Shown: positions 12,872 to 43,400 of the stretch, piece by piece
How positions within the stretch are numbered: the stretch's first letter is position 1
How the letters are laid out: every line of letters starts with the position of its first letter
IMG/VR virus record: IMGVR_UViG_3300021964_000119
Span: 1 to 48,220 of that record
Length of the DNA: 48,220 nt
Source: a virus
Direction: 5' to 3' (one strand)
Position numbers and translations under genes: made by a program
Notes under the pieces: model-generated
Told to the model about the DNA's origin: nothing
What the model saw: only the letters and a program-made list of their open reading frames with translations
Databases searched by the model: none

Positions 12872-14095
12872 ATGGCGAAAATACTGTATTGTGCTGACGC
12901 TTTTGTAGAAACAGGCTTCGGGCGAGTTGCGCAGTACTTGCTGCCTGCTCTTGCCGAAAAGCATGAAGTGGTAGTGCTTTCAGTGAACTATCACGGTGAC
13001 CCTCATCCCGAAGCACAAAAATACAAAGTGTATCCAGCCATGTTGCATGGCTCTGATCCATTTGGCTCCCATCGCATTGCCGATATCATTCGCCGAGAAA
13101 AGCCTGATTTGGTATGGGTGACAAATGATATCTGGGTGGCTATTCAACTATGGGAGCGAGCGAAGGCGTTAAAAGAAGAGTTTGGATTTAAATGGTTTGT
13201 CTACACTCCCATTGATTCTTATGGACTATTCCCTGAGCTAAAAGCTCAAATGGAGGGATGGGATGGCATTGCCACGTATACGCAATTTGCGAATAACGAA
13301 TTGAAGCTTATGGGCTGGGACAAGCCTATTGACATTATTGGCCATGGTACTGATTTTGAAAAATTCTTTCCGCTTAATAAGCAGCAATGCCGAAAAGAGC
13401 TAGGCGTACCAGAAGATGTGTTTGTTGTCTTTAATGGCAACAGGAACCAGCCACGCAAGCGTATTGATCTCACGCTTAAAGCTTTCATCAAATTTGCCAA
13501 GGACAAAGACGATGCTCGTCTGTGGCTCAACATGGGCAAAAAAGATTTGGGATGGGACATAATTCCTTTATTCAAGCGTCTTGCCCGCGATGAAGGCTAT
13601 GACCCAACTGGAAAGATAATTCTCACGAGCCCACATTTTTCAGTGGACAATTGCCTTTCCATTGAACAATTGAACAAGGTGTATAACGCAGTGGACGTTG
13701 GCATCAACACTTGCATGGGTGAGGGCTGGGGCCTAGTTAATACAGAACATGGTTCAGTTGGCGTGGCGCAAGTGGTGCCGGATCATACGAGCCTGGCTGA
13801 AATTTTTGATGAACTGCCGCGCATCTTTTGTAACGCTGCTGAAACTGACAGGAACTATGGACTTGAACGGCTTCTTCCTGATCCTGAAAGCGCTGCAAAG
13901 ATCCTCACTTATTACTACGAAAATCGTGATGCGCTAAAGAAAGACGGGCAATGGTGCGCAAGGCGCTTGCGTGAAGAGCCATTTACTTGGCCTTATATTC
14001 AGCAGCAGCTTCTTGATGTAGTAGAGCGCACGCTAAATGCAGCGGCTCCCGAGCCTGAATTCAAAGGATTTGGCACTCCCGCAAAAATCAATTAA
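12872..14095 (+). CDS. Glycosyltransferase family 4-like protein
   Basis: A 407-residue GT-B fold glycosyltransferase. The N-terminal domain has the glycine-rich start CADAFVETGFGRVAQYLLPAL, and the C-terminal domain has FNGNRNQPRKRIDL, a typical donor-site strand and loop, and GEGWGLVNTEHG, the E-x7-E motif of GT4 enzymes. It should transfer a nucleotide-sugar residue; the acceptor is unknown. It is the first gene of a four-gene glycan cassette placed between head morphogenesis genes. Modification of virion proteins or of the host surface are both possible. TAGTAT 22 bases upstream is a weak -10 candidate. Confidence 0.85.
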   Translation: MAKILYCADAFVETGFGRVAQYLLPALAEKHEVVVLSVNYHGDPHPEAQKYKVYPAMLHGSDPFGSHRIADIIRREKPDLVWVTNDIWVAIQLWERAKALKEEFGFKWFVYTPIDSYGLFPELKAQMEGWDGIATYTQFANNELKLMGWDKPIDIIGHGTDFEKFFPLNKQQCRKELGVPEDVFVVFNGNRNQPRKRIDLTLKAFIKFAKDKDDARLWLNMGKKDLGWDIIPLFKRLARDEGYDPTGKIILTSPHFSVDNCLSIEQLNKVYNAVDVGINTCMGEGWGLVNTEHGSVGVAQVVPDHTSLAEIFDELPRIFCNAAETDRNYGLERLLPDPESAAKILTYYYENRDALKKDGQWCARRLREEPFTWPYIQQQLLDVVERTLNAAAPEPEFKGFGTPAKIN

Positions 14096-14097
14096 TC

Positions 14098-14808
14098 ATG
14101 CAAGTTTCACAAATTTTTCTTTCTACTAATTCATCAGAAGAGCTTAGCCCTTTCTTGAGGCACGCCACTGGCACCATTGATGCATGTTTTCCCGAAGCAA
14201 AGCATGTCATTTATAACAGCGATTCGCTTCGCGCTTTCATCGCTGATAACTATGAAGAAGAAGTGCTGTGGGCATACGATACGCTTAAGCCATTTTCTTA
14301 CAAGGCGGATCTTGGACGCTTCTGCCTGTTAAATAAACTAGGGGGCTGGTATTTTGATATTGGCGTGAGAGCTTTTAATGGAGTGGAGTTGGGAGATCGA
14401 ATTAAGTTTTTAGCTTTTCGTGATATCCAGCGTTTTAGTTTTACAAGCTGGGCTTGCGCCACAACTGTGCTCTATTCCAAGCCTGATAACCCTGCTTTGC
14501 AAACTGCCATTGAAATGATTGTGGCAAATTGCATTGAGAAATACTACGGCATCACGCCATTATGCCCTACTGGTCCGACTTTGCTCGGCAAGGCATTGGC
14601 TTGTAATGGTAGCGACGCTGATTTTGTTTACGGCGACTACCTTGAACTCACCCCTACGCATGGTCAAAAGAATAGAGCTTTTGTACTTCCTGATGGCACG
14701 ATCATGGCATGGAGCAAGCCTGCAGGCGGTGGCGATTTGAAAGGGCTTGGCGCAAAGGGTGTTAATAATTACAATGAACTGTGGCAGGCCCGTCAAGTGT
14801 ATGACTGA
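14098..14808 (+). CDS. GT32-like glycosyltransferase (DXD-type fold)
   Basis: A 236-residue protein resembling the sugar-transferase DXD (GT32/OCH1-like) family: LKPFSYKADLGRFCLLNKLG followed by GWYFDIGV, equivalent to the family motif GG-x-Y-x-D-x-D. The second Asp is replaced by Gly here (DIG), so metal binding may differ or the enzyme may be altered. Later family-like elements are CPTGPTLLGKAL and a C-terminal Trp-containing segment. It follows the GT4 gene by two bases and overlaps the next gene by eight bases, so the cassette is translated as a unit. Confidence 0.75.
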   Translation: MQVSQIFLSTNSSEELSPFLRHATGTIDACFPEAKHVIYNSDSLRAFIADNYEEEVLWAYDTLKPFSYKADLGRFCLLNKLGGWYFDIGVRAFNGVELGDRIKFLAFRDIQRFSFTSWACATTVLYSKPDNPALQTAIEMIVANCIEKYYGITPLCPTGPTLLGKALACNGSDADFVYGDYLELTPTHGQKNRAFVLPDGTIMAWSKPAGGGDLKGLGAKGVNNYNELWQARQVYD

Positions 14809-15517
14809 TCGCGACGATACTATTTATGCAGTTTGTATTCCGGGCGAAAAAGTACGCTATACGGCTCAGTCTCGCATTGTCCCCATAATGGGAGGCGCGT
14901 ATGCATTGTCAAAAGAAAAACGGGAAAAACTTAGAAAAGAAGATTATGTGTTCGATAACGAAGGAGCTTTTCTTTCTTCGTTAAATGATCGCTGGGGAGA
15001 GTTATCTTGCATACATTGGATGATTCTTAATGCCAGTGAAGACATTATTGGTAACGCACAATATCGACGCAATTGGGTGGAACCTAGTGGTGAATGGTAC
15101 TCCCCTGAGACTTTGTATGTGCCAGAGCCCGCTCAATTTTCTTGCTCTTTAGAGCAACAGTTTTATGGCGGGCATTCGGCGTTTGATGCTCCTGCTATTA
15201 CGCGCGAATTTGCAGATACTGGCAAATGGTTATTTACGCGAGAAGAAATTGATTATTTATGGTCTCAGTCGTCTTTTATTGGATGCAATATGGCGCGAGG
15301 CAGCAGGCGTAATTACAAGCATTTTATGACTGTTTTATTTACAGGGCTTGTTCCAATCTGGGAAAAGCACAAAGAACATTTTCTTTCCATTGAAGGTTAC
15401 GATAAGCGAGCTATTGCATTTATTGCTGAACGCCTTATTACTGGCATGATTCTATGCCGAGACAGAATTCTTCCTGAGATTAACATTGCCACAGCTCCCA
15501 TCTCATTTATCCCTTAA
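14801..15517 (+). CDS. DUF4422-like glycosyltransferase
   Basis: A 238-residue protein starting at the ATG at 14801, inside the end of the previous gene (ATGACTGA). It shows the DUF4422 pattern: an early conserved strand ending RIVPIMGGAY, a DN-x-G-x(5)-SLNDRWGELSCIHWMILN segment matching the family's Asn ... Glu-Leu-Thr ... Trp stretch, and GNAQYRRNW corresponding to G-x-x-H-YRRY-F. DUF4422 proteins are linked to polysaccharide synthesis and are regarded as glycosyltransferases. The His of the last motif is Gln here. It completes the set of three sugar-transfer proteins. Confidence 0.7.
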   Translation: MTDRDDTIYAVCIPGEKVRYTAQSRIVPIMGGAYALSKEKREKLRKEDYVFDNEGAFLSSLNDRWGELSCIHWMILNASEDIIGNAQYRRNWVEPSGEWYSPETLYVPEPAQFSCSLEQQFYGGHSAFDAPAITREFADTGKWLFTREEIDYLWSQSSFIGCNMARGSRRNYKHFMTVLFTGLVPIWEKHKEHFLSIEGYDKRAIAFIAERLITGMILCRDRILPEINIATAPISFIP

Positions 15518-15519
15518 TC

Positions 15520-16053
15520 ATGGCTCACAAAGAACAATCTGATTACATTGCTTCAGTTAAAGAACAGTTTTCTTCTTTTTTCCATGGAGGAAGAGTATTG
15601 GAAATTGGCAGCTTAAACATTAATGGAACAGTGCGCAAATTTTTCAACGCAGAAGAATACATTGGTGTAGATGTTGGAAACGGCCCTGGCGTAGACGTTG
15701 TGATTAGCGGCCATGAATATGACGACGATAAGCTTTTTGATTGCACCATTTCTTGTGAATGCTTTGAGCACAATCCTTACTGGGCAGAAACGTTCGCCAA
15801 CATGGTGAGACTGACCAAGAATGGTGGTCTTGTTATCTTTACTTGCGCAACCACTGGACGCCCAGAGCATGGCACTGAAAGAACGACGCCACAAGATTCC
15901 CCGTTAACCATTGCAAAGGGCTGGTCATACTACCGCAATTTGACGCGAGAAGATTTTGAAGAAGCTTTTGAATTTGACAGCATGTTCAGTCAAAAGTGTT
16001 TTAGCCTTAATAGCAGCTCTTGTGATTTGTACTTCTGGGGAATCAAAAAATGA
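15520..16053 (+). CDS. SAM-dependent methyltransferase (class I)
   Basis: A 177-residue Rossmann-fold methyltransferase. Motif I is VLEIGSLNINGTVR (residues about 26-39), the acidic residue after strand 2 is in YIGVDVG, motif III/IV is CTISCECFEHNPYW, and a later strand GGLVIFTCATTG fits motif VI. The SLNINGTVR variant is like those of methyltransferases in sugar-modification loci. It may O-methylate the glycan made by the neighbouring transferases; this is inferred from context. Its stop overlaps the next start (ATGA). Confidence 0.8.
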   Translation: MAHKEQSDYIASVKEQFSSFFHGGRVLEIGSLNINGTVRKFFNAEEYIGVDVGNGPGVDVVISGHEYDDDKLFDCTISCECFEHNPYWAETFANMVRLTKNGGLVIFTCATTGRPEHGTERTTPQDSPLTIAKGWSYYRNLTREDFEEAFEFDSMFSQKCFSLNSSSCDLYFWGIKK

Positions 16054-16355
16054 CCAAGAAAGAAAAGCAGGCAAAAATTCGCCTTGTCATGAAAGAATTT
16101 AAGAGTGGCAAGCTAAAGAGTAGCAGCGGAGAGAAAGTAACAACTCCGGCCCAGGCATTAGCGATTGCGCTTTCCGAAGCTGGCATGTCGCGTAAGCCCA
16201 AGAAAGACCAAAGCGACGAATACTATATGGGCTTCTTCAAGGAGATTGCTGGAGAAGAGGAAGAGGAAGGGGAAGAGGAAATGGATGAAAGTGCAGGTGA
16301 GGCCCGCTGTCGTGGCTATCTAAAGACTGTTGCGAAGAATAAAAAAAAGAACTAA
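16050..16355 (+). CDS. DUF6496-like protein, zero-frame product
   Basis: A 101-residue protein. Residues 8-48 (KIRLVMKEFKSGKLKSSSGE ... ALAIALSEAGMSRK) match the DUF6496 pattern of short phage proteins, in which a helix and a K-S-rich turn are followed by an A-IA-ALSEAG helix. Then come a strongly acidic stretch (EEEEEGEEEMDES) and the segment CRGYLKTVAKNKKKN. The last codons form a slippery A-AAA-AAG site followed by a hairpin, so part of the ribosomes should shift to the -1 frame and make the longer protein listed separately. Confidence 0.75.
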   Translation: MTKKEKQAKIRLVMKEFKSGKLKSSSGEKVTTPAQALAIALSEAGMSRKPKKDQSDEYYMGFFKEIAGEEEEEGEEEMDESAGEARCRGYLKTVAKNKKKN

Positions 16356-16702
16356 GGGGAGACGCTGAGAGCTTCTCCCCTCCTGCTGGTGTTAGAACTG
16401 CGGCACGTCGCGGCCTTGAGTTGCGTAAGAAACACGGCAAAGGGGGGTTAAGTACGCAGGAGGCGGGAAAGCAGGGAATTGGTAGTGGCGTGGCGAGGGC
16501 TAGTAATTTAGCTAGTGGTGACAAAATTAGTTTTGCCACTATTAAGCGCATGGCCGCATTTTTCTCTCGCCATGAAAAGAATAAAAGCGGGGGAGAAGAT
16601 GATGCTGGTTATATTGCATGGCTCCTATGGGGAGGTGATGCTGGTAGGGCGTGGGCTAATCGCATTATTAAGATGGTGGAAAGTCGCAATAAAGACCAAT
16701 GA
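16050..16702 (+). CDS. Longer product made by -1 frameshift (DUF6496-like plus second domain)
   Basis: After tandem slippage on A-AAA-AAG (16343-16349) translation continues in the -1 frame from the GAA at 16349 to the stop at 16700-16702. The added part begins ELRGDAESFSPPAGV and continues RTAARRGLELRKKHGKGG, GIGSGVARASNL, DKISFATIKRMAAFFSRHEK and AGYIAWLLWGGDAGRAWA, a pattern known from phage proteins that normally sit next to the first domain. The second ORF has no ATG near its start: the open frame begins at 16343 and the PPAGVRTAARRGLEL segment lies before any good start codon. That is strong support for frameshifting. A sequencing error is the main alternative. The product is about 217 residues long. 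Confidence 0.7.
16343..16381 (+). promoter_or_regulatory. Programmed -1 frameshift signal
   Basis: The in-frame heptamer A-AAA-AAG (the dnaX-type slippery site) at 16343-16349 is followed after five bases by an eight-pair hairpin, aggggaga (16355-16362) with tctcccct (16374-16381). An inner gct/agc pair lies inside the loop. Slippery site, spacing and stem match the known design of stimulated -1 frameshifting. Confidence 0.75.
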
Positions 16703-17010
16703 GCGAATACGTGCGTGTCATTGAAGAAGAAGACGAAGGCATTGGTCTGCTGCAGGCATTGTCTATTCTTTCTGCCAACGAACACCGCAACACTTCACGA
16801 TGGGAGCTAGTAGAAAAACAATGCTTTAAGAATGGCCGTCTTGACGAGACTCATATTTATGTGATGAGCGTTTACGACAAGCCTGATGAGCATTTTGAGC
16901 CAACCAAGTTTCTTACGTTTGAAATTGAAGCAATGGCCAAGTCATATGTCATGGAAGGCATTGAAGCTCAGCTTTCTTCCATTCGCGACGACGATGATGA
17001 TGATGATTGA
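16699..17010 (+). CDS. Small hypothetical protein with poly-Asp tail
   Basis: A 103-residue protein that starts with ATGA overlap on the previous stop. It has an alpha/beta look (EYVRVIEEEDEGIGLLQAL, THIYVMSVYDK, TKFLTFEIEA) and ends in seven Asp residues encoded by a gat/gac run. Acidic tails occur in DNA-mimic and chaperone-like phage proteins, but no function can be assigned. It is the last plus-strand gene before the antisense insert. Confidence 0.7.
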   Translation: MSEYVRVIEEEDEGIGLLQALSILSANEHRNTSRWELVEKQCFKNGRLDETHIYVMSVYDKPDEHFEPTKFLTFEIEAMAKSYVMEGIEAQLSSIRDDDDDDD

Positions 17011-17047
17011 TTAGTTGTTTTCTTGATAATCGGCAGTTATTAAGAAA

Positions 17048-17323
17048 TCAATTAATTTTTGCAATAAATGATGGATAGCCCATCAGCCATAGCACGCTGA
17101 CGTCGTAGAGACCGCTGAGTGTGACAATTTGCACGACAGACGGCTCTGTTTGCCCTTTTTCTATTCGGCAATAGGTGGATTGACCTATGTGAAGCGCTTC
17201 TGCCGCGTCTCGCTGAGATAGGCCATTGTTTAATCTGGCATCTTTAATGCGCGATGCAATAAGCATGCGCCTTTGGTGGTGAGGCAGCTTCATGCCATTG
17301 ACAGTGCTTGCTAAAAATCTCAT
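17048..17323 (-). CDS. XRE-family helix-turn-helix regulator
   Basis: A 91-residue protein with a Cro/CI-type helix-turn-helix: RIKDARLNNGLSQRDAAEAL, then IGQSTYCRIEKGQTEPSVVQ and the supporting helices ending SVLWLMGYPSF. It is co-directional with the endonuclease gene at 17320-17853 and overlaps it by four bases (ATGA). Together they form an antisense two-gene unit inside the plus-strand head operon. The regulator may control expression of the endonuclease rather than a lysis/lysogeny switch, because no integrase or second repressor is seen. Confidence 0.85.
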   Translation of the reverse strand: MRFLASTVNGMKLPHHQRRMLIASRIKDARLNNGLSQRDAAEALHIGQSTYCRIEKGQTEPSVVQIVTLSGLYDVSVLWLMGYPSFIAKIN

Positions 17324-17853
17324 GACATCGCGTGCTTGCTAACTTTCCATCCCTTGATCTGCTTAAGCCTGCCGTTAATCACATCGTAAACATGCGCTCG
17401 GTTTATGTCGTGCTCCCTGCAGAATTCCCGCAGGTTTAAGGTGACATGTATAGACCCGCTGGGCGAAGTGAAGTGGTAAAAGTAGCCGCGAGATCCAGCG
17501 CACAAAGATTTAATCCATTTTTGCTTTCTGTTTGCTTTCTGTTTAATAGTTAGCCTTTCCGTCGTATTTCCTCTCCAAGCAAATTTGGATGTAGTTTGCT
17601 TGGCTTTATTTGCAAAATGTGGATTTATATCCACTTCATAGTATTGATGTAATTTTACTTCCGCCTCAAGAGCCTCTTGTTCTGTATTAAATACTTCAAG
17701 AATTATTTTGCACGTGGGCTTGAATGTTTTATCGGTGTAACTTCCAAAGTAGTTAACATCATTTTCTGGGGGCACGTTTGACGAGCGCTTGCCAATATAG
17801 CCACGCCCCCACTGCTCGTAGGAGTAATAGACATAGTGCCACTTTGCGCCCAT
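17320..17853 (-). CDS. GIY-YIG homing endonuclease
   Basis: A 177-residue free-standing homing endonuclease. The N-terminal GIY-YIG domain shows YVYYSYEQWGRGYIGKR, with the family's YVY and GYIG strands, followed by NYFGSY and the helix around EQEALEAEVKLHQYY, where a catalytic Glu is expected. The C-terminal part NLREFCREHDINRAHVYDVI followed by NGRLKQIKGW is a NUMOD/IENR-type helix-turn-helix DNA-binding repeat. Such enzymes cut intronless or endonuclease-less relatives so that their own gene is copied in. It is antisense to the surrounding head genes and followed by an XRE regulator. Confidence 0.85.
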   Translation of the reverse strand: MGAKWHYVYYSYEQWGRGYIGKRSSNVPPENDVNYFGSYTDKTFKPTCKIILEVFNTEQEALEAEVKLHQYYEVDINPHFANKAKQTTSKFAWRGNTTERLTIKQKANRKQKWIKSLCAGSRGYFYHFTSPSGSIHVTLNLREFCREHDINRAHVYDVINGRLKQIKGWKVSKHAMS

Positions 17854-17912
17854 TGATCTATGTTTGAATCATGGCCTGAATGCTAACACATTCTTTGGTT
17901 TATTATGTAAAT

Positions 17913-19109
17913 ATGGACTTCCAAAACGGCTTCCGTTACGATGTTTCCACCATCCAGAACTACGAGTTCACGGATGAGGGCTATTTGCGCGTAAAAGCGC
18001 GAATTGCCCGTACTGGTATTCAGTCGTATACAGATGCAAGTGGCGGTGTCCGCTTGGAGTATAGGCCCGAGGACGAAGTGGCTTCGCAAGAAGCCCTTGA
18101 TAGTTTTCGGGAGAAGTGCGTAACCAAGGAGCATCCTCCGGTGCTGCTTGATGCCGCCAATACGAAAGACTATGCAGTTGGTTTTACCAGTGCAGATGTC
18201 TCATACTCTGATGGCTTTGTTGAAAGCACTCTGACTGTAACCGACAAGGAAACTATTGATTCAATCATGCGTGGAGACGTGCGTGAAGTTTCATGTGGTT
18301 ATAAAGTTGATTACAGTCCAGAGCCTGGCGTTACGTCTGACGGCCAACATTATGATGGCATTCAGCGAAACATTCGTGGTAATCACGTTGCCATTGTCAA
18401 CAGGGCTAGAGGTGGGGCGCAGGTGCGCCTCATGCTTGATTCAGCGGATGCCGCTGTCAACGATTTAATCACTCCCCAAAAGGAACAAATTATGTCTGCA
18501 AACATTGTGTTTGACGGCGTTTCCTTTGAGGCGGATGCAGCTCTTGCGGCTGCCATTGCTGCTGAGCGTGAAGACGCAAAAGGCAGCTACGCCGAAATGA
18601 AGCGTCGTTATGAAGACGCCATGGCCGAAGCCTCCAAAATGAAGGAAGAAATGGACGCCATGGAAAAAGAAATGAAGGGCAAAATGGACGCTGCCGAAGG
18701 CCGCGCCGATGCCCTGGCCGAGCAAGTCGAAGAACTAAACGGAGAGCTTGCTGCTGCCAAGGAAATCAATCTTGATTCCATGGTAGAAGAGCGTGTTGCT
18801 CTCATTGAAAAAGCAAAGCCTGTGCTTGATGCTGCCTATTCCTTCTCTGGTAAAGATGCTCGTGAAGTGATGGTGGATGCTATCAAGGCAGTGCGTGGTG
18901 ATGAGCTCGATCTTTCTGAGAAGAGCGATGACTACGTGCAGGCAATGTTTGACACTCTTTCCGAGGGTCGTTCTGACTCTGCCACCACTGATGAGCTGCG
19001 TAAAGCCGTAGCTTCCATTGCTTCTCCAATGTCTGCTCCTTCTTCCTACATGGAAGCTCTGCAGAATGCTTGGAAGAAGCCCCTTTCCATCTCCAAGGAG
19101 GCTAAGTAA
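17913..19109 (+). CDS. Prohead protease (DUF2213-like) fused to scaffold
   Basis: A protein of 398 residues from the ATG at 17913; an ATG at 17880 would add eleven residues. The N-terminal half resembles DUF2213 prohead proteases: KEHPPVLLDAANTKDYAVGF, then VREVSCGYKVDYSPE and QRNIRGNHVAIVNRARGGAQ, in which His and Ser could form the catalytic pair. From about residue 215 a long acidic coiled coil follows (MKRRYEDAMAEASKMKEEMD and on), the typical scaffold part cleaved during head maturation. The position right before cement and capsid genes is standard. The fused form lets the protease travel inside the prohead. Confidence 0.8.
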   Translation: MDFQNGFRYDVSTIQNYEFTDEGYLRVKARIARTGIQSYTDASGGVRLEYRPEDEVASQEALDSFREKCVTKEHPPVLLDAANTKDYAVGFTSADVSYSDGFVESTLTVTDKETIDSIMRGDVREVSCGYKVDYSPEPGVTSDGQHYDGIQRNIRGNHVAIVNRARGGAQVRLMLDSADAAVNDLITPQKEQIMSANIVFDGVSFEADAALAAAIAAEREDAKGSYAEMKRRYEDAMAEASKMKEEMDAMEKEMKGKMDAAEGRADALAEQVEELNGELAAAKEINLDSMVEERVALIEKAKPVLDAAYSFSGKDAREVMVDAIKAVRGDELDLSEKSDDYVQAMFDTLSEGRSDSATTDELRKAVASIASPMSAPSSYMEALQNAWKKPLSISKEAK

Positions 19110-19111
19110 TC

Positions 19112-19672
19112 ATGGCCGTAACTTTTACTGCTTCGGGCTCGCCCACAGCAGGTGGTGTGCAACAGACTTATGCTCTGGAGCATGACGCACTGCTCGAAGG
19201 TCAACTGTCCGACATTCGTGATAACACTATTATCACCCGCGTTAACGAAACCGCCGTTGTCATTCCCTTTGGTAATGGCGTGGTGTATGACAGCACTGGT
19301 ACTGGTGGTACTGGCGCCAAAACTCTTTCTGCCTCCGGCGACACCTTCCTGGGCGTGAACGTTCTCACTTATGTGGACGAAACCGCTCTGGATGCCAACA
19401 GCCGTCCTGGCGTGAAAGTGGATCAACTGATGAACGTAGCTAGCGAAGGTGCAGTTGCCGTGTATGTGCATGGTGCTGTTAATCCTTCCACTGCAGTTCG
19501 TGTGATTCACACTGCTACTGGCGTCAAGTACGCTGGCCGCTTTAACAATGCTGCCATTGCTGGCAAAACTGCTGTTCTGTCGAATGCTCGCTATCTCACC
19601 ACTACAACTGGTGACGGTATTGCCATTCTGGAACTGAACGGCCCCTCGTTCACTCTCACTGGCGATTCCTGA
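19112..19672 (+). CDS. Head decoration (cement) protein
   Basis: A 186-residue, Gly/Thr/Ala-rich, all-beta protein directly before the major capsid gene. It contains segments such as NTIITRVNETAVVIPFGNGV and GVKVDQLMNVASEGAVAVYV that resemble the structural cement proteins (Gp24-like) of siphoviruses using DUF2184 capsids. It should bind the outside of the expanded capsid and stabilise it. Very good codon use and a strong Shine-Dalgarno for the next gene suggest high expression of both. The exact family is inferred from position and composition. Confidence 0.65.
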   Translation: MAVTFTASGSPTAGGVQQTYALEHDALLEGQLSDIRDNTIITRVNETAVVIPFGNGVVYDSTGTGGTGAKTLSASGDTFLGVNVLTYVDETALDANSRPGVKVDQLMNVASEGAVAVYVHGAVNPSTAVRVIHTATGVKYAGRFNNAAIAGKTAVLSNARYLTTTTGDGIAILELNGPSFTLTGDS

Positions 19673-19675
19673 TAG

Positions 19676-19683
19676 GAGGTCTT
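19676..19683 (+). promoter_or_regulatory. Strong ribosome-binding site of the capsid gene
   Basis: The sequence AGGAGGTC just before the capsid ATG at 19688 is nearly a full anti-16S match, the best in the window. It fits the need for many capsid copies. Confidence 0.8.
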
Positions 19684-19687
19684 AACC

Positions 19688-20596
19688 ATGTCTGAATTCC
19701 GTATGGATGATGCGGGTCTGTTCCTTGAGCGCCAGCTTGAGTACATCCGCCCCCAAGTTTTTGAAGTGCAGTATGCGGATATTAAATATCCGACCATTCT
19801 GCCTGTTACCAGTGAAGCTGGTCCTGGCTCCCAGACTTTCACCTATCGCATCATGGACTCCACTGGTGAGTTCAAGCTGATTGCTGATGCTGCTGATGAT
19901 CTGCCCCGTGCCGACATCAGCCAAGTTGAGAAGAGCATCAACATCCGCTCTTTTGGTGGTTCGTTCGGTTACACCGTACAGGAACTGCGTGCCGCTCAAA
20001 TGGCCAATATTGCTCTGGAGCAGCGCCGTGCTGCTGCTGTGCGCCGTGCCTATGAGGAGAAAGTGGAAGATGTGGCGATGTTCGGTGAGAGCAGCGTCGG
20101 TCTGGCTGGTTTCTTCAACAATTCCACCGTGGATGTTGTTGCTGCTGATAAGTGGTTCACTGATAGTGGCACCACTGCCCAGGAAATGCTGGAGCTGTTG
20201 AACTATGGCGTGAGCGCTATCATCAACGCCTCTCAGATGAAGGAAACTCCTGATACTATCCTCATGGCTTATGAGGATTACAACAAGGTCAGCACCACTC
20301 GTAACTCTGATTCTTCGGACGTTACCGTGCTGGAATATTTCCTGCGTACCAATCCTTACATCCGTAATGTTGAGCCTATCAACCAACTGGATGCAAGCAA
20401 AGGCGCTTTGAATACCAACCGTATGGTTGTGTACAAGCGCGATCCTGAGAAGCTGCAACTGCACATTCCTCAGCCCCTTGAGCTCTTCCCGCCTCAACAG
20501 CGCGGTCTTGAGTTCATCGTCCCTGCTCATGCTCGCGTGGGTGGCCTGGCTCTGTACTATCCCAAGAGCGTTATTTACGTTCAAGCTTCTAGCTGA
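19688..20596 (+). CDS. Major capsid protein (DUF2184-like)
   Basis: A 302-residue HK97-fold capsid protein of the DUF2184 type: MSEFRMDDAGLFLERQLEYI at the N-terminus, then YADIKYPTILPV, a QTFTYRIMDSTGEFKL strand, SFGYTVQELRAAQMANIALE along the spine helix, FFNNSTVD, and the C-terminal strands PLELFPPQQRGLEFIVPAHA and RVGGLALYYP. It forms the icosahedral shell. A very strong Shine-Dalgarno precedes it, and protease/scaffold and cement genes lie directly upstream. No delta-domain extension is seen, in keeping with a separate scaffold. A 300-codon mirror ORF on the minus strand is a codon-bias shadow. Confidence 0.9.
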   Translation: MSEFRMDDAGLFLERQLEYIRPQVFEVQYADIKYPTILPVTSEAGPGSQTFTYRIMDSTGEFKLIADAADDLPRADISQVEKSINIRSFGGSFGYTVQELRAAQMANIALEQRRAAAVRRAYEEKVEDVAMFGESSVGLAGFFNNSTVDVVAADKWFTDSGTTAQEMLELLNYGVSAIINASQMKETPDTILMAYEDYNKVSTTRNSDSSDVTVLEYFLRTNPYIRNVEPINQLDASKGALNTNRMVVYKRDPEKLQLHIPQPLELFPPQQRGLEFIVPAHARVGGLALYYPKSVIYVQASS

Positions 20597-20651
20597 GGAT
20601 AGTTAATTAAGGGAGGGACGTTAAGCTATGGACAATTGTTTCTTTTGAACA

Positions 20652-23060: not shown

Positions 23061-23585
23061 ATGAGCAAGTATTCAAGCATTTTTCTGCTTAGTAATGCAG
23101 AGTATGAAAATATTGGCGATTGTTTGAGGCTGCGTAAATATGGTAGTTGGCTAGCAGAGGAAGCATGGCAAAAAGAAGAGCAAGGCCAAAAACGCGCACA
23201 ATTTACACTGCGAGCTATTGCGCTTGCCAAGAAAATTGCCGTTGAAAAAGGCGTTGACCAAGACGAAGCATTCGCCATGCTTCAAGGAGGCAATGAAGGT
23301 GAAAGTATCTTGTCTGAATACTCAGAAGAGGCAATGGAGCTAATGAATAGCATGCCTTCTGCGCGTGAACAATTCGGCGAACTCATTACAACTTTTTTCC
23401 GTAATCGCGGAGAAATCATGAGCGGCAAGAAGTGGTGCGCTACAGATGATTGGACCATTGAGGATACGCAAAAACTACCAAAAGCGTTTCTTGATCAAAT
23501 TGAAGCATTCATGGCAACAGAAGATAAGGGGCAAGAAGTTTTTGACAACGAGCAAGATACTGAGGAGGAGGAGGAAAAAAACTAA
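23061..23585 (+). CDS. Tail assembly chaperone, short form (gpG-like)
   Basis: A 174-residue acidic helical protein just upstream of a second frame and the tape measure, the classic place of lambda gpG. It ends in a DNEQDTEEEEEKN tail encoded by a purine run that contains the slippery heptamer A-AAA-AAC. Such chaperones coat the tape-measure protein before the tube forms. The short form should be the major product. Confidence 0.8.
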   Translation: MSKYSSIFLLSNAEYENIGDCLRLRKYGSWLAEEAWQKEEQGQKRAQFTLRAIALAKKIAVEKGVDQDEAFAMLQGGNEGESILSEYSEEAMELMNSMPSAREQFGELITTFFRNRGEIMSGKKWCATDDWTIEDTQKLPKAFLDQIEAFMATEDKGQEVFDNEQDTEEEEEKN

Positions 23586-40402: not shown

Positions 40403-43400
40403 ATGTCCTTGCAAATTCAGCTCAAGAAGAGCGCCGTTAGCCAGAAACAACCTTTTGCCAGTGACTTGGCTGTCGGTGAACTGGCACTTAACTACAACGC
40501 TGATGGACCGTTTCTAACTTGCAAGGACACCGCAGGTAATGTTCGCAAGCTCAATAATGTATGGGTGGGAGCAACTGCCCCCACTAGTCCGAGTGCGGGA
40601 GATCTTTGGCTTGACATCAGCGCAACTACTGCCGTACTAAAGGTTTATAAAGATTCGACAAGCACTTGGGTGAATGCAACAACTATCCCACTGGCGACTA
40701 CAAGTATTTTTGGGACTGTCCGTCTTGCAACGTCAGCCGACATTACTAACGGCACTTCAGGCAAAGTTGTTGATGCGGCTCAATTAAATAGTAAAATCGT
40801 TTCCGCTTTCTCGCAAGAAGAAATCACTTTAAATGATGTTAATTTGCTTGGTGATTTAGTTGTTGCTGGTGATTTAACTGTTAGCGGTACTACTACAACT
40901 ATTTCGTCTGAAACCCTGTTGGTTGAAGACAAGAACATTGAAATGGGCGTCGTTGCAACGCCCACTGATATTACTGCCGATGGTGGCGGCATCACGCTGA
41001 AAGGAGCCACGGACAAGACGTTAAATTGGAGCAACGCCACTGATAGCTGGACCAGTAGCGAAAATATTGATCTTGCCAGCGGCAAAAGCTATCGCATTAA
41101 TGATGTTGAAGTGCTGAGTGCCACGGCACTTGGTTCGGCTGTGCAGATCAGTAGTGCCAACATTCCAAGCGGTACTATTGTTGATAGCGACATTAATGCT
41201 GCCGCCGAGATTGCCGTTAGTAAATTAGCTGACGGTGCTGCGCGTCAGTTGCTGCAAACTGATGCTGCTGGTAGTGGCGTGGAGTGGACTAGTAATGTAG
41301 ATGTGCCTGGTACACTTGACGTGACGGGAGCAGCTACGTTTGATAGTAGCGTTGCCGTCACTGGAGCATTAACTAAGAGCGGCAATAATGTTGTAACTGT
41401 TGGCGATACTGGTACTGTTACCAGCACAATGATTGCCAATAACACCATTGTTAACGAAGATATTAATTCTTCGGCGGCGATTGTTGATACAAAGCTTGCA
41501 ACGATTAGCACTGCTGGTAAAGTAAGCAATAGTGCTACAACTGCCACTTCTTCAAACACTGCAAATGCTATTGTCGCTCGTGATGCTAGTGGAGATTTCT
41601 CCGCCGGAGCAATCACCGCTAGCTTGACAGGCAATGCTGATACAGCTACAAAACTGAATAGCAGCCGCACATTTGCAGTCACTGGTGATGTTATTGGCAC
41701 TGTAAGTAGCGATTTGACAAGCGGTGCAAGCATTGGCACCAGCATTGCATCAGGAGTGATTGTTGATGCTGATATTAATGCTTCGGCAGAAATTGCAGTT
41801 TCAAAGCTTGCTGATGGTGCCGCTCGTCAACTTCTTCAAACTGATGCTGCTGGTACGGGAGTGGAATGGACAAGCAATGTAGATGTGCCTGGTACATTGG
41901 ATGTAACTGGTGCTGCCACGTTTGACAGTAGTGTTGCAGTTACCGGCACGCTTACTAAAAGCGGAAATAACGTTGTAACAGTTGGAGACACTGGTACTGT
42001 TACTAGTACGATGATCCTTGATGGGACCATTGTTAATGGAGATATTAATGCGAGCGCTGCGATTGCTGGCACCAAGATCAGCCCGAATTTCGGCAGTCAG
42101 AATGTTACCACCACTGGCACCAGCACCGCTGCGAGCTTCATTCCCACCAGCAGCACGGTGCCCACCAACGGGGTTTATCTACCTTCCGCAAATAGCGTAG
42201 CCCTCGCCACTAATGGCACGGGGAGGTTGTTTGTTGATAGTAGTGGGAATGTTGGTGTTGGTGCAGCAAGTCTCAACAATAAGTTTGAAGTCGTAGGTAA
42301 CGCACTGCTTCGAGCAAACGGTCAGTTGAAGCTCGGCGATGCGACAAATCAGCAAATTTCTGTTATTCAAAACAGTGGAGCATCCAACACAAGTCAAATC
42401 GAGTTTCTTACTGGCGCTATTCCTACCGAACGCCTCCGCATCACCTCCGACGGCAAAGTAGGTGTGGGGACTAGTGCGCCCAGTGCTCTTTTCCATTTGA
42501 AAGGCAACCCGTCTGCAATTATTCACTTGCAAGCAGCCAATGACACTGTTAGCAACTACATTACTTTCCGCAATGCCGCAGATGCTACAAGAGGCTATTT
42601 GGAATATAACTATGCAAGTGATTATCTATCTATTGCAACAGCTAATTCGACGCGAGTCCGGATTGACTCCTCAGGCCGCGTAGGGATTGGCACTACGAGC
42701 CCCAACTCAAAGTTGCACTTAAGGGAAGCCGGAGCATCATCAGTTTATCTACAGTGTGAAAACAATGGCGGCTCAGCAAGTTTTTACGCAGGTTTAACTT
42801 CATCTGGCGACATGTTGTTGACGGGAAACAATGCACTACTTTTTCAGGCAGGTAGCTTTACAGAACGCGCCCGCATCACATCAAGTGGGCAGCTTTTAGT
42901 GGGCACGTCTAGTGCGCTCACGCTTGATTCTTTTACCACGTACGGTATTCAACAATTTTCAGCCGGCAACGTATCAAATCAAGGCATTCTTCTCGAAAAC
43001 GGAGTAAATGGAGGTGGCCACGGAAAACTTACGTTTGCGAAAAACCGTCAAGGGTCTTCGGGCGGAACAACAATTGTAAATTCCGGCGACACGTTAGGGG
43101 CTTTTTATTTTTATGGAGCAGATGGTAGTAAATATGTGCAAGCAGCCTTCATTAGTGCCCAAGTAGACGGCACCCCCGGCGTTAACGACATGCCGGGCAG
43201 GCTTGTCTTTTCGACAACCGCGGATGGTTCTGCAAGTCCTACCGAACGCCTCCGCATCACATCCGACGGCAAAGTAGGTGTGGGGACTAGTAGCCCTGCG
43301 GCTATTTTGCATACAGTTACTTCAGCAAGTTTTGATCCTACGGGTGTTTCTAATTTTGCTGGTGTAGGTTTATTTCTTCAGACCCCTGCTGGAGTTGCTG

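Follow-up and report, generated by a model that had tools for sequence, protein, structure and literature searches.

A conserved -1 frameshift signal probably joins a DUF6496 reading frame to a phrog_2859 domain in a phage gene outside the tail chaperone

In the window, that is, the whole 48,220-nucleotide stretch of viral DNA analysed here, two open reading frames overlap on the plus strand, with the second (B) in the -1 frame of the first (A). Are they two genes, a single gene split by an error in a run of eight adenines, or a single gene whose second half is reached by a ribosomal frameshift? A first-pass annotation favored the frameshift and placed it outside the tail chaperone. The features of the locus are as follows.

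16050..16355 (+): ORF A, zero-frame product of 101 aa, with a DUF6496 domain (residues 4-44) and an acidic linker; Pfam PF20106 match
16343..16349 (+): slippery heptamer A AAA AAG, read in the frame of ORF A; from the sequence, with a heptamer there in 138/138 collapsed -1 loci
16350..16354 (+): spacer of 5 nt; from sequence and fold
16353..16355 (+): zero-frame stop TAA, one codon past the heptamer; from the sequence
16355..16381 (+): putative stimulatory hairpin; from the fold, pairing across relatives and a synonymous-shuffle test
16343..16702 (+): ORF B, -1 frame, conserved domain phrog_2859, C-terminal part of the predicted A-B protein; profile match

The heptamer, the five-base spacer and the 8-bp hairpin with an inner 3-bp stem, as described in the first-pass annotation, are all present in the sequence and in the RNAfold prediction. 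The A8 run covers 16341-16348 and is followed by G, and ORF A reads ...AAT AAA AAA AAG AAC TAA. In the hairpin, 16355-16362 pairs with 16374-16381 (8 bp), and 16364-16366 pairs with 16370-16372 (inner 3 bp). RNAfold predicts precisely these stems, at -17.5 kcal/mol, and when the window sequence was shuffled synonymously 200 times, no shuffle was as stable as the native hairpin. ORF A belongs to DUF6496 (PF20106) with 28.7 bits against the Pfam gathering cut-off of 24, and domain B belongs to phrog_2859 by profile search (E 1.3e-17, residues 12-113). The acidic linker noticed just before the shift is part of ORF A. The B frame is open over 16343-16702 and, as had been claimed, contains no ATG, GTG or TTG ahead of its PPAGVR segment in the window. 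The shifted A-B product is predicted to have 217 aa, 23.7 kDa and a pI of 9.6, with the junction peptide ...TVAKNKKKELRGDAES..., while the ORF A product alone would have 101 aa, 11.3 kDa and a pI of 8.9.

Slippery heptamers of any kind occur in frame 18 times in about 35 kb of scanned plus-strand ORFs of the window. Only two of them lie within two codons of an ORF end, namely the site at 16343-16349 and a tail-chaperone site at 23576. A 32-base DNA match at 41269-41300 was considered as a second copy of domain B and rejected, because the B profile matches only 16343-16699 among the window ORFs.

We consider it very probable that A and B form one gene with a programmed -1 frameshift. In the proposed mechanism, most ribosomes would read A, comprising DUF6496 and the acidic linker, and terminate one codon past the heptamer. 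On reaching the hairpin, a fraction of ribosomes would stall, and both of their tRNAs, P-site and A-site, would move back one base in tandem on X XXA AAG. The shifted ribosomes would then read on into B and produce the A-B protein, 217 aa long in the window, with the ratio of A to A-B fixed by the RNA signal. All three heptamers found among the relatives end in AAAG, which allows the A-site AAG to pair again as AAA; the P-site codons AAA, GGA and CCA can re-pair as AAA, GGG and CCC. Since every heptamer type keeps three identical leading bases, tandem slippage is favored. Anticodons of the host tRNA-Lys influence A AAA AAG. That slippage happens, at whatever rate, is what we infer from the sequences.

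The set of relatives included 452 sequences: the window, IMG/VR viral contigs, MAG contigs, Synechococcus phage S-CBS4 and three other phage records. Each collection scan contributed its best 80 matches, and the set is skewed to close relatives; for profile A1 in IMG/VR, the best 80 of 532 related stretches counted were taken. Collapsing identical or contained cores left 184 sequences, and the window itself (L001, L002) was removed before every count. Among the 184, the -1 arrangement of A and B occurs in 138, a single common frame in 28 and the other frame in one (L195). The remaining 17, without A, comprise three contig ends (L045, L288, L431), 13 distant architectures and one cut locus (L315), in which the heptamer is kept. 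Some counts refer to 127 frameshift loci assembled earlier, with 100 distinct 45-mers and 113 distinct 57-mers, and to 28 fused loci. The window DNA is 71.7% identical to that of S-CBS4 over 63% of 15500-20600.

In all 138 collapsed -1 loci among the matches listed, a canonical heptamer locates exactly 30 nt 5' of a conserved Phe codon. It is A AAA AAG in 98 loci, G GGA AAG in 31 and C CCA AAG in nine. Every -1 locus therefore has the in-frame X XXY YYZ heptamer inside the overlap that is typical of bacterial-type programmed -1 frameshifting, and conservation of the site in related phages, set beforehand as a check, is borne out. The zero-frame stop follows one codon past the heptamer in 124 loci, immediately in 12 and later in two. 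In a tree of B from which the signal region was left out, the A type changed 13 times, the G type 16 times and the C type four times, of which seven, seven and one changes, respectively, are forced by well-supported branches.

These loci bear on the possibility that A and B are truly in one frame and were separated by a homopolymer error in sequencing or assembly, the outcome that the first-pass annotation had named as fatal to its own reading. Two loci do resemble A-run indels: L195 has an A5 run, one A fewer, with A and B not in a -1 relation, and L124 is fused. The single-base A-run differences in L195 and L124 are new mutations or homopolymer errors. However, 138 distinct loci share the -1 arrangement, one of them from a cultured isolate, and it is found with heptamers that are not homopolymers, which makes such an error extremely improbable as an explanation. 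Transcriptional slippage on the A-run, yielding mRNAs with A and B in one frame, is highly improbable on similar grounds. The A8 run of the window would suit it, but 40 of the 138 sites (31 GGGAAAG, 9 CCCAAAG) have only three A and so do not offer the long homopolymer expected of such slippage, and selection keeps the hairpin at a spacing that fits a ribosome.

On the other hand, A and B could be separate proteins, with B started by reinitiation at a non-standard codon past the A stop, such as a CTG overlapping the TGA. A CTG indeed stands at B-frame codon -7 in 71 of the 138 loci, and the S-CBS4 annotation splits the locus into two genes and starts B at a GTG. But the window has CTA at codon -7, which varies among the 138 loci (28 CTA, 16 TTA, 7 TTG, 5 GAC, 3 GAT), and starting at the S-CBS4 GTG removes the conserved segment. 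No start codon is conserved: among the matches listed, none of the 138 loci has an ATG in the B frame 5' of the conserved Phe, and GTG or TTG occurs somewhere in that interval in 41 of the 127 loci of the earlier set. The downstream frame is thus open and has no ATG start of its own, as in programmed -1 frameshifting of the bacterial type, and relatives with an independent ATG start, which would have spoken against a frameshift, did not appear among the 138. Furthermore, reinitiation needs no heptamer at fixed spacing, and 28 one-frame fusions exist. We regard reinitiation as very unlikely.

The frameshift reading calls for a selected, stable RNA structure a few nucleotides 3' of the heptamer, and such a structure is found in all but three of the 138 loci. 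The frameshift set (138) has an MFE of -16.4 versus -8.5 for synonymous shuffles, with a mean z of -3.01 and 119/138 at 5% or better. In the fused set (28), the MFE is -7.9 versus -6.6 for the shuffles, with a mean z of -0.49 and only 2/28 at that level. The stem is complete, with 8/8 pairs, in 86 of the 109 distinct frameshift sequences, and 20 more have 7/8; of the 24 distinct fused sequences, two have the full stem and 10 have seven pairs. As the residues encoded at the hairpin are similar in the two sets, codon choice tests selection at the RNA level. The hairpin Arg codon is AGG in 134/138 frameshift loci (the others are three Ser AGC and one CGG) versus 11/28 fused loci.

Pairing is also maintained across sequence change. 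Of the 904 cells in an alignment of 113 distinct sequences, 98.0% are paired; shifting the partner by 1-3 columns lowers this to 56.6-69.7%. Most double changes occur at the stem pair 16360-16376 (CG 48, AU 45, UG 10, GU 2, other 8 in the 113 sequences), which links a synonymous Gly third base with an Ala/Ser first base. The independent-pairs covariation test on well-supported branches yields only six comparisons, none against, with a median p of 0.0625; branch-counted covariation alone is therefore suggestive, not decisive. Fold and shuffle tests gave no hairpin at the site in L379, L392 and L417, all with C CCA AAG. These three loci may use another stimulator or shift little.

In the 28 one-frame sequences, A and B form a continuous frame and the protein sequence past the join is nearly unchanged. 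The heptamer is absent in 27 of the 28, and the hairpin is degraded in most. The exception is L124, in which both heptamer and hairpin are kept; here a single base of the A-run seems to have changed, either truly or by error. The frameshift and fused states interchange 12 times on the B tree, at least three of these changes being forced by well-supported branches. We observe that the heptamer and hairpin are under selection and that both are lost where A and B are naturally fused. Taken together, the conservation, the fused controls and the hairpin selection make a strong case against sequencing error, independent starts and transcriptional slippage. With heptamers of three types at fixed spacing, a covarying hairpin and fusions without the signal, the comparison convincingly indicates that the frameshift signal outside the tail chaperone is real and conserved, and that a known mechanism probably operates in a new gene.

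The fusions and the repeated changes of slippery site among close relatives offer a natural experiment on the origin, change and loss of frameshift signals, and on whether the protein ratio or only the A-B fusion is needed. The short form is dispensable in some lineages, as the one-frame fusions show, which makes it less credible that a fixed A to A-B ratio is essential. In one fused relative (L233), the DUF6496 score is 18.9, under the gathering cut-off of 24.

The shifted product of dnaX is the shorter one; the A-B gene differs in being a phage gene of other function whose shifted product would be longer. In the parts of PMC5009743 consulted, E. coli dnaX, like the A-B gene, combines an A AAA AAG heptamer with a 3' stem-loop, and A_AAA_AAG, the dnaX site, is described as much more shift-prone in E. 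coli than four other heptamers. Anti-SD pairing near -12 is stronger at the G- and C-type sites of the frameshift loci, but linkers shuffled synonymously pair just as well (mean fraction as good 0.43-0.61); compared with dnaX, the A-B loci thus give no signal of an upstream Shine-Dalgarno stimulator above the shuffles.

The heptamer of lambda gpG/gpGT is G GGA AAG, the kind present in 31 A-B loci. As predicted for the A-B gene, gpG/gpGT has a short product and a -1 C-terminal extension. Unlike gpG/gpGT, the A-B gene precedes the head protease and is not beside the tape measure, the family profiles are unrelated, and one-frame fusions occur among its relatives. A tail assembly chaperone role for A-B was considered and rejected: the gene is not directly 5' of the tape measure, and what follows it in relatives is the 16699 gene, then a repressor and then the head maturation protease. 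The window has a separate candidate.

23061-23585, -1 frame to about 23990: tail-chaperone candidate; precedes tape measure ORF 24553

The candidate site is A AAA AAC at 23576, with a stop right after and then the inverted repeat CGGCTTG...CAAGCCG. This site also lies past an acidic stretch, and ORF 23061-23585 has no PHROG match.

The first-pass annotation had called frameshifted phage genes other than gpG/gpGT rare. They are uncommon but known, and the consulted parts of PMC5009743 include the T3/T7 coat, Lactobacillus A2 and Listeria A118/A500/PSA cases. As proposed for the A-B gene, the coat frameshifts add a C-terminal domain to a fraction of a protein, there a head protein (same parts of PMC5009743). 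Unlike A-B, which would join a small DUF6496 protein to phrog_2859, they act in coat (some also tail) proteins and often add Ig-like domains. A direct homologue is S-CBS4 gp018/gp019, with A and B, A AAA AAG and the hairpin; it is annotated as two hypothetical proteins, with gp019 starting from a GTG inside the conserved domain. The gene adds a probable frameshift family beyond the tail chaperone; in the sole close isolate found, its two halves are annotated as separate hypothetical genes. Searches of titles and abstract starts found no description of a DUF6496/phrog_2859 frameshift, and, in literature that included few subscription papers, no paper naming DUF6496 was found. The passages covered of PMC5009743, PMC10274946 and PMC3711429 make no mention of a frameshift in a DUF6496 gene.

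Immediately downstream of the A-B gene lies a further conserved cistron.

16699..17010 (+): next cistron, 103 aa, conserved neighbour; ATGA overlap of its start with the B stop; Shine-Dalgarno match absent

Its product has a run of Asp at the end. In the relatives, the gene order is A-B, the 16699 homologue, the repressor and the head maturation protease. A homologue of the 16699-17010 ORF is found in 136/137 frameshift and 28/28 fused relatives, a divergent repressor nearby in 136/137 and 27/28, and the head maturation protease nearby in 130/137 and 26/28, many contigs being too short to tell.

The ATGA junction raises the question of whether shifting occurs but serves mainly the dose of the downstream protein, since only shifted ribosomes would reach it. 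The next ATG stands at -1, overlapping the B stop, in 94/138 loci, and 96 such ATGA starts are nearly without a Shine-Dalgarno match (1% at -6 kcal/mol or lower). However, the A starts lack such matches as well (5% at -6 kcal/mol or lower), which makes the lack a common trait of this phage group, and the overlap also exists in 24/28 fused relatives. We consider dose as the main use rather unlikely. The frameshift may also set the dose of the 16699 gene, but with the A starts equally poor in Shine-Dalgarno matches, this coupling is only a possibility.

Regarding the role of the protein, the first-pass annotation was probably right that a DUF6496 part is joined to a second domain; the Pfam and phrog_2859 matches confirm the two parts. 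It was not right that this domain usually sits beside DUF6496; outside this phage group, B was not seen next to DUF6496 and is mostly found on head proteins, including proteins with head maturation protease-like regions (L084, L441). Among predicted viral proteins, structure matches of the fused model include portal, prohead protease, XkdF, ParB-like and HAD-like proteins. In a MAG contig labelled Actinomycetota (L244:1738-5112), B is part of a protein of 1125 aa that also has poly(A) polymerase head and HAD_SAK_1 domains, an architecture hinting at nucleic-acid binding. The AlphaFold model of the natural fusion L233 is mostly helical, with a mean pLDDT of 84.1, a pTM of 0.56 and the highest confidence in B. 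No solved fold was found for the fused protein: Foldseek against PDB gave a best E of 2.5 (the lambda cI N-domain, not significant), VIA-align a best Z of 3.3 with no useful match, and the PDB sequence search E 0.65 or worse with no useful match. NCBIfam yielded no families in the three proteins scanned.

Because the gene adjoins the head maturation protease, and B domains elsewhere sit on portal, protease and other head proteins, we infer that A-B is likely an accessory of head assembly or packaging, with B docking on head components or nucleic acid. More tentatively, and with low confidence, we speculate that the A-B gene is a head-module counterpart of gpG/gpGT. The frameshift would set the ratio of DUF6496 to the phrog_2859 form, with B docking on head proteins, as well as the dose of the next cistron through ATGA, and phages would switch between this device and the one-frame fusion, and between dnaX-kind and lambda-kind slippery sites.

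Two further observations concern the surroundings. A block of glycosyltransferase and methyltransferase genes occupies 12872-16053 of the window, between the portal and head protease genes, and its make-up varies among relatives. On the minus strand, an ORF at 17320-17853 lies in a stretch with DNA matches to cyanophages annotated with HNH endonucleases. This ORF is present in only 10/137 frameshift and 5/28 fused relatives and is therefore probably mobile; its sequence reads like GIY-YIG, to which it may belong.
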